Below, piece after piece: positions 8,682 to 9,079 of a stretch of DNA of 39,846 bases; the first letter of the stretch is position 1, and every line of letters begins with the position of its first letter. A model generated the notes under the pieces. That model had not been told where the DNA came from. It saw nothing but the letters and a program-made list of their open reading frames with translations, and did not search any database. Position numbers and translations under genes: made by a program. Origin of the DNA: an uncultured Pelagibacteraceae bacterium (GTDB taxonomy: Bacteria; Pseudomonadota; Alphaproteobacteria; Pelagibacterales; Pelagibacteraceae); assembly GCA_902604065.1 (NCBI GenBank), contig CACKXF010000011.1, positions 1-39,846 of the forward strand. The letters are read 5' to 3'.

Positions 8682-8735
8682 AATTAATCCTATATTGACT
8701 TTTATGAAGGTTATACAATAGAATTGAAATACCAT

Positions 8736-8768
8736 CCACATGGTCAGAAAGTGGCTCATCTACATGAG
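8736..8768 (+). repeat. Two short adjacent inverted repeats upstream of the small plus-strand gene
   Basis: CCAC/GTGG (8736-8739 with 8751-8754) is followed immediately by CTCAT/ATGAG (8755-8759 with 8764-8768, four-base loop). Both lie in the 36-70 bases before the ATG at 8805 and could fold in its leader RNA. Each stem alone is short enough to be chance. Confidence 0.35.
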
Positions 8769-8804
8769 TTAAAAGTAGGTTGAATAAACAAACAAGGAGT
8801 ATGC

Positions 8805-8996
8805 ATGGATAGACATACAAAATTGTTAAAAGAATTCAGCCTAAAAAAAACACAGGCTGAACTTTTAAACAAGCTAAGAAAATCCAGAAAAGCCATCGAT
8901 ACAGGCAAGTCAGGTACTTTTGGTTATAGATTAAAGCAAGGTACTAATGCTGGAAAAGTTCTTAAACATTTAAAAAAGACCTCGGATAACATTTAA
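8805..8996 (+). CDS. Small basic protein of unknown function, 63 aa
   Basis: Starts at an ATG preceded by AAGGAG at five bases' spacing, one of the best Shine-Dalgarno sequences in this window, which otherwise shows few. The product is basic and largely helical, beginning MDRHTKLLKEFSLKKTQAEL, with a Gly-containing middle (TGKSGTFGYRLKQGTNAG) and no membrane segment. I do not recognise a family. The coding sequence contains a strong imperfect hairpin and is followed eight bases after the stop by a GC-rich hairpin. It is either a genuine small protein gene, perhaps highly expressed, or a structured RNA that also carries an ORF. Confidence 0.55.
   Translation: MDRHTKLLKEFSLKKTQAELLNKLRKSRKAIDTGKSGTFGYRLKQGTNAGKVLKHLKKTSDNI
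8826..8868 (+). repeat. Long imperfect hairpin inside the 63-aa gene
   Basis: TTCAGCCT (8835-8842) pairs perfectly with AGGCTGAA (8854-8861) across an A-rich 11-base loop. Outside a two-base bulge, TTAAAAG (8826-8832) pairs with CTTTTAA (8862-8868). The total is 15 base pairs with one bulge, strong for DNA this AT-rich and unexpected inside a coding sequence. Confidence 0.6.
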
Positions 8997-9003
8997 CTCT
9001 TGT

Positions 9004-9026
9004 AGGGGCAGGACTATACTGCCCCT
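9004..9026 (+). terminator. GC-rich hairpin after the 63-aa gene, possible terminator
   Basis: AGGGGCAG and CTGCCCCT form an eight-pair stem, seven of them over the GC-rich core, around the loop GACTATA. It begins eight bases after the stop codon. The tail TAATCAAATAATTT has only scattered Ts, so intrinsic termination would be weak; a 3' stabilising hairpin is the alternative. Confidence 0.5.
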
Positions 9027-9079
9027 TAATCAAATAATTTAATAGCCAAATTCTATTTTTAATTATAAAAAAGATCTAT

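Follow-up and report, generated by a model that had tools for sequence, protein, structure and literature searches.

A covarying tandem-pseudoknot leader upstream of a tiny protein gene in SAR11 bacteria, a candidate riboswitch for nitrogen status

The 5′ leader of a small gene from an uncultured Pelagibacteraceae bacterium, analyzed here as part of a 39,846-nt stretch of DNA (the window), folds as two contiguous minimal H-type pseudoknots which are kept by matched mutations in two orders. This leader is probably (we would put it at roughly 60%) an undescribed cis-regulatory RNA, most likely a riboswitch for nitrogen status that controls a tiny nitrogen-assimilation protein. Glutamine is the leading candidate for its ligand, with a related nitrogen metabolite also being possible. 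Few cells in the ocean are as abundant as SAR11 bacteria, and for their nitrogen sensing and glutamine synthetase (GS) control the locus provides one RNA and one protein as candidates, each of a size suited to direct in vitro work.

The region 8731–9026, with all features on the forward strand, was read as one compact transcription unit with an mRNA of approximately 300 nt. A sigma-70-like promoter (TTGACT-18-TAGAAT, 8695–8724) was predicted by consensus match only (10/12 in a consensus scan), and in relatives this leader likewise has TTGACA boxes 5′ of it. The mRNA start predicted from this promoter lies almost exactly at the first pseudoknot. The unusually good AAGGAG remarked on in the original prediction is indeed present at 8794–8799, 15 nt downstream of the second pseudoknot, and is a Shine-Dalgarno (SD) sequence conserved among relatives, followed by the ATG (8805) of a 63-aa ORF (8805–8996).

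Pseudoknot 1 (8731–8754) consists of a first stem, S1, of ACCAT (8731–8735) with ATGGT (8740–8744), a second stem, S2, in which the loop CCAC (8736–8739) pairs with GTGG (8751–8754), and an A-rich crossing loop, CAGAAA (8745–8750). Pseudoknot 2 (8755–8779) abuts it with zero spacer and has the S1 CTCAT (8755–8759)/ATGAG (8764–8768), an S2 between the loop CTAC (8760–8763) and GTAG (8775–8778) that G8779 can lengthen, and the crossing loop TTAAAA (8769–8774). The two short leader hairpins of the original prediction do exist (ACCAT-CCAC-ATGGT, 8731–8744; CTCAT-CTAC-ATGAG, 8755–8768) and had been half-read, being parts of two pseudoknots; likewise, the pairing CCAC...GTGG from 8736, taken for the first hairpin, is real and forms the second stem of pseudoknot 1. 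Alignment of relatives showed each leader hairpin loop to be complementary to a GNNN strand just 3′ of it, with a unit consensus of NNCAU-[NNNC]-AUGNN-..AAA-[GNNN]. Conserved within the units are the CAU/AUG pairs, the C-G pair closing S2 and the AAA run before the S2 strand, the loop sequences being otherwise almost free.

The fold is carried by covariation. Counts were kept separate for compact and extended leaders because a joint MAFFT alignment of all leader types mis-registers the stem of pseudoknot 2. In the compact leaders (n = 18; 17 pairs), 98.4% of cells were paired compared to 87.3% in shuffled alignments, two-sided changes were seen in 9 of the 17 pairs (0/500 shuffles as high), and covariation was 0.385 against 0.178 ± 0.020 in shuffles, none of which reached the observed value. 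As such shuffles ignore relatedness, weight is carried by the slid control, in which a shift of 1–3 columns left 23–31% paired, and by how many distinct pair types occur. The extended leaders, whose second crossing loop holds an additional hairpin (n = 11), were 97.5% paired, with six pairs showing two-sided change. Approximately 15 different S2 types occur among relatives, all of them complementary, with loop and partner changing together. These include CCAC/GUGG, UCAC/GUGA, CUC/GAG, GUC/GAC, GAGC/GCUC and CUCC/GGAG in unit 1, and CUAC/GUAG, CGAC/GUCG, UCGC/GCGG, UCGC/GCGA, GAUC/GAUC, GUAC/GUAC, GCC/GGC, ACUC/GAGG and UUAAC/GUUAA in later units. S1 varies as well (CUCAU/AUGAG, CCGAU/AUCGG, CGGCAU/AUGCCG, CAGCAU/AUGCUG, CGCAU/AUGCG). 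Permutation of loop and strand partners gave 3.61 bp for the true partners versus 2.42 bp (0/2000), and a general tandem-pseudoknot descriptor fitted 90 of the 126 distinct leaders and none of 630 shuffles. Its 36 misses belong mostly to other branches of the protein family, the remainder being near-misses by eye (e.g., L153, L176, L045–L047). The covariation proposed earlier as a check was thus found in the 5′ leader, where a covarying structure lies in the 5′ UTR just upstream of the SD and start codon across species, as expected of a cis-regulatory structured RNA.

The nested fold of 8736–9035 had a minimum free energy (MFE) of −72.5 kcal/mol, with dinucleotide shuffles giving −52.9 ± 4.9 (z = −4.0, 0/200). 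When compared with the 396 other 291-nt stretches of the window, 8736–9026 ranked 3rd by MFE, and 2nd of the 397 in a GC-corrected MFE ranking; it is therefore among the most structured pieces, and the claim of far more structure than elsewhere was too strongly worded. Nested folding cannot display pseudoknots, the strongest feature of the locus. The leader suggests that H-type pseudoknots of only ~24 nt in series can form a regulatory element missed by nested-fold searches. Elsewhere in the window are a glycine riboswitch (RF00504, 38762–38847, reverse strand) and a small SRP RNA (RF00169, 33817–33911, forward strand).

The 63-aa ORF encodes a small, basic, Lys/Arg-rich protein. The dN/dS between relatives is mostly 0.03–0.34, so the comparison of synonymous and non-synonymous substitution, another of the proposed checks, indicates that the ORF is a genuinely coding one and its product a real protein. 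The conserved part reads NGTSGYxIKxGxNxGKVLKHL. Homologs were found in 263 of 397 Pelagibacterales genomes, and a class-wide search returned them from Pelagibacterales only, with phages also carrying the family. No Pfam or NCBIfam assignment and no PDB relative was found; matches to PF18921, TFIIE and NS1 in Pfam were below cut-off and were rejected. AlphaFold2 on the protein alone gave a pLDDT of 78 and a pTM of 0.31, and with 36 homologs an N-terminal helix (residues 3–31) was predicted with confidence, the C-terminal half not. In one locus (L044, genome G032), in-frame stops break the small ORF while leader remnants remain.

Two further stems had been pointed out. The bulged stem inside the ORF, TTCAGCCT/AGGCTGAA (8838–8845 with 8857–8864), exists, but as a conserved RNA element it found no support: it is present in close relatives, in L014–L027 an outer C-G pair becomes C.A without compensation, and it is probably mostly explained at the codon level. 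The eight-pair GC-rich stem past the stop, AGGGGCAG/CTGCCCCT (9004–9011 with 9019–9026), is present as described and is not followed by a U-run. Nearly all SAR11 members have a stem at this position, its sequence being entirely different among them; it is terminator-like and may be a terminator or 3′ stabilizer.

To survey the leader, a covariance model (R1) was built on the compact type. It matched in 60 of 327 Pelagibacterales genomes, nearly always as one copy, a count which is only rough because R1 loses many extended leaders and some of the weakest matches are chance; many of the surveyed genomes are incomplete SAGs or MAGs. Matches below 30 bits were chance-like and were not counted, nor were weak matches in G064–G079 near a ribB-like gene, which hold half of the motif only. 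The strong matches compared lie directly 5′ of an ORF of the 63-aa family, the exception being genus g5, in which another protein, of 48 aa, follows the leader. In another alphaproteobacterial order the leader is present in 21 of 32 genomes, in 20 of these before a third tiny protein of ~40 aa (MLLTxxIIKFNNFFVKIPKxTxRVWDxSENRWGYK). It was not found elsewhere in the phylum in 148 sampled genomes. The number of units per leader varies from two to three, and the three tiny proteins behind it have no visible similarity to each other.

Three associations link this system to nitrogen. Firstly, the glutamine-I riboswitch (RF01739) was detected only twice in the 327 Pelagibacterales genomes (G116 and G214, genus g8; 60.2 bits), and in both it lies directly before a member of the 63-aa family in place of the pseudoknots, which are present in the other g8 genomes G157, G167 and G376; orthology of the protein within g8 is not proven for so short a family. 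Secondly, in G833 of the other order, three pseudoknots in series run directly into RF01739 (66.4 bits), followed by a Gcw_chp porin gene and then amtB (PF00909, E 1e-88), with a GATase_2/GltB-type gene divergent from this unit; this association with amtB comes from a single genome, whose analyzed stretch contains 52 N. Thirdly, in genera g6 and g9 the protein family has a second branch, whose gene lies 3′ of sufA and at most g6 loci examined sits between sufA and glnA (TIGR00653, 648.6 bits), convergent with the latter. In g1 genomes sufA is near glnA, with no small ORF detected between them, and a search before amtB and glnA in 22 genomes returned only scattered single-unit chance matches to the pseudoknots. 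The three links are mutually independent and in agreement, each being indirect, and each may represent one evolutionary event. The substitution by and fusion to RF01739 are the context for a possible glutamine-sensing function of the leader.

Some neighboring observations were made at these loci. In the g6-branch leaders (L084–L098), the stretch from sufA to the ORF is without pseudoknots and holds repeats of (A)TGCATATC, which may serve as an operator or promoter. In part of g6, an alpha-tmRNA-like partial match that stays below cut-off (29 bits) lies 3′ of the small ORF (L059:440–532, reverse strand). Another alphaproteobacterial order, that of G566, also has RF01739 (23 of 32 genomes; L312–L330), mostly directly 5′ of a protein of ~468 aa (MYNEVYKNSKVRKFYNQIYDWAKSLPENV..., ATP-grasp-like by eye), contradicting the stated restriction of such riboswitches to cyanobacteria.

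The protein family is also carried by phages. The phrog_32989 protein is found in 27 phage records, 25 of them pelagiphages; against its profile, family members reach E-values of 8.5e-13 and 5.4e-18, and the window protein, aligned along the full profile, 0.0014. For the other two tiny proteins, no phage relative was convincing. The phage gene copies that were read lie in packed operons without the leader, and none was found in viral contigs with the one exact pattern searched. Carriers span podo-, sipho- and myovirus types (L309, L054–L056, H5–H31), and their copies reach 65% identity with the g6 branch. One carrier, HTVC027P, increases the host's transcripts of glnA, gltBD and amt (PMC12753301). 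The analysis thereby exposes a host nitrogen-linked protein carried by ~25 sequenced pelagiphages.

From these associations we infer small-molecule binding, the direction of switching and the function of the protein. By analogy with glutamine-II leaders, high glutamine or a related signal would alter how the pseudoknots fold, this would change translation of the small protein, and the protein, by analogy with GS-inactivating factors, would adjust nitrogen assimilation; pseudoknot units in series might give a sharper response. Control independent of PII would be needed because PII (glnB) is absent from most SAR11 (PMC10030771), a gap that such a circuit would fill. A wider reading is offered tentatively, being somewhat short of even odds: the leader may represent a third class of glutamine or other nitrogen-signal riboswitch, unrelated in structure to the first two, made of repeatable ~24-nt pseudoknots and exerting PII-independent control over nitrogen assimilation through tiny proteins in SAR11 and a second alphaproteobacterial order, with diverse pelagiphages having captured one of the proteins without the sensor.

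It is also conceivable, if rather unlikely, that the tandem pseudoknots are the site of an RNA-binding regulatory protein, such as a nitrogen-responsive antiterminator or translational repressor, and not a metabolite aptamer. Hairpin units that are small, repeated and poor in conserved unpaired bases resemble protein sites, to which Weinberg et al. likened mini-ykkC (PMC2864571), and a unit number of two to three would suit this. With some 15 S2 types the loops are almost free in sequence, however, so little is left for sequence-specific reading of the loops, and in g8 the element's place is taken by a metabolite riboswitch. Mini-ykkC itself was later found to bind a ligand (guanidine-II). That the pseudoknots merely stabilize the mRNA or tune translation at its 5′ end, responding to no signal and with coincidental nitrogen links, is improbable. 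Such a role would agree with the predicted transcription start at pseudoknot 1, with a 3′ end also closed by a stem and with the lack of a switching alternative fold, as no consistent SD-sequestering fold was found and SD accessibility in nested folds was not consistently altered; it does not account for the gene-specific distribution at about one copy per genome, the tandem organization or the substitution by and fusion to the glutamine riboswitch. Autogenous control, as known for T4 gp32 and ribosomal proteins, might be expected of a small Lys/Arg-rich protein with the leader directly 5′ of its gene in one family branch, but is quite improbable given that three proteins not visibly similar to each other share the leader and that the family also occurs without it (behind the g8 glutamine riboswitch, at the g6 sufA-glnA junction and in phages). 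The original prediction was right that both a structured RNA and a real ORF are present, but the dual-function RNA it proposed, trans-acting as well as peptide-encoding, can be dismissed as unneeded, since the ~300-nt transcript, though compact, structured and ending in a terminator-like stem, showed no conserved unpaired seed region, and the covarying structure is confined to a leader common to unrelated ORFs. That the structure is placed immediately ahead of a small ORF's SD, and is used before three unrelated small ORFs, argues for cis-regulatory behavior, and the riboswitch for nitrogen status is retained as the preferred reading.

No family of Rfam 15 matches the window leader, and searches of the window and 15 relatives at permissive E-values gave chance matches only. 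ANTAR targets have two hairpins with hexaloops carrying A at loop position 1 and G at position 4; this motif was rejected by eye, the loops here being of 4–5 nt, variable and complementary to downstream strands. SAM-II and SAM-V had no Rfam match on the coding strand (SAM-V 17 bits on the other strand only; cut-off 41). Like these, the leader has H-type pseudoknots near a start codon in Pelagibacter (PMC2704228), but with other sequences and other genes. Among the motifs of the SAR11 survey of Stav et al. (2019; RS05825, HRC-1/2 and sORF motifs; PMC6429828), RS05825 of SAR11 HIMB5 similarly lies near the ribosome binding site before a gene of unknown function, and differs, by its description, in having three hairpins and an asymmetric internal loop in P2 in place of tandem pseudoknots.

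Glutamine-I riboswitches (RF01739) are three-way junctions of ~53 nt with a conserved binding core (CGUUCA...GACGGAAGUAG...GGAACG) that the window leader lacks; no match was obtained in the window at gathering or at E ≤ 5, while L067 and L253 do match. The likeness lies in the same position before the same protein (G116/G214) and in the series with pseudoknots (G833). Cyanobacterial GS-inactivating factors are under glutamine-riboswitch control (PMC6316151), and the 63-aa protein may plausibly be a GS modulator working like them, with the convergence of the g6 branch with glnA as its context. The parallel with IF7/IF17 (DUF4278) is of the works-like kind, with a small basic protein under a glutamine riboswitch in one genus and another branch beside glnA; no DUF4278 match in Pfam or sequence relationship to IF7/IF17, and no homology to known GS regulators or PDB chains, was detectable. 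Glutamine-II (RF01704) gave no match in the window or 15 relatives. Its pseudoknot with C1, G2, G18, C19, C39, G40 and G41 (PMC6698751) is not resembled in sequence, and the leader differs in pseudoknot topology, in having no CGUUCA...GGAACG binding core and in minimal units that repeat two to three times without spacer. Glutamine-II, or Downstream-peptide, leaders precede orphan ORFs of 17–100 aa, and pseudoknots before three different tiny orphan proteins repeat this pattern (PMC2864571). Both systems place a pseudoknot leader directly 5′ of very short orphan ORFs, and both belong to streamlined marine bacteria and a nitrogen context (PMC2864571, PMC6698751, PMC6316151).
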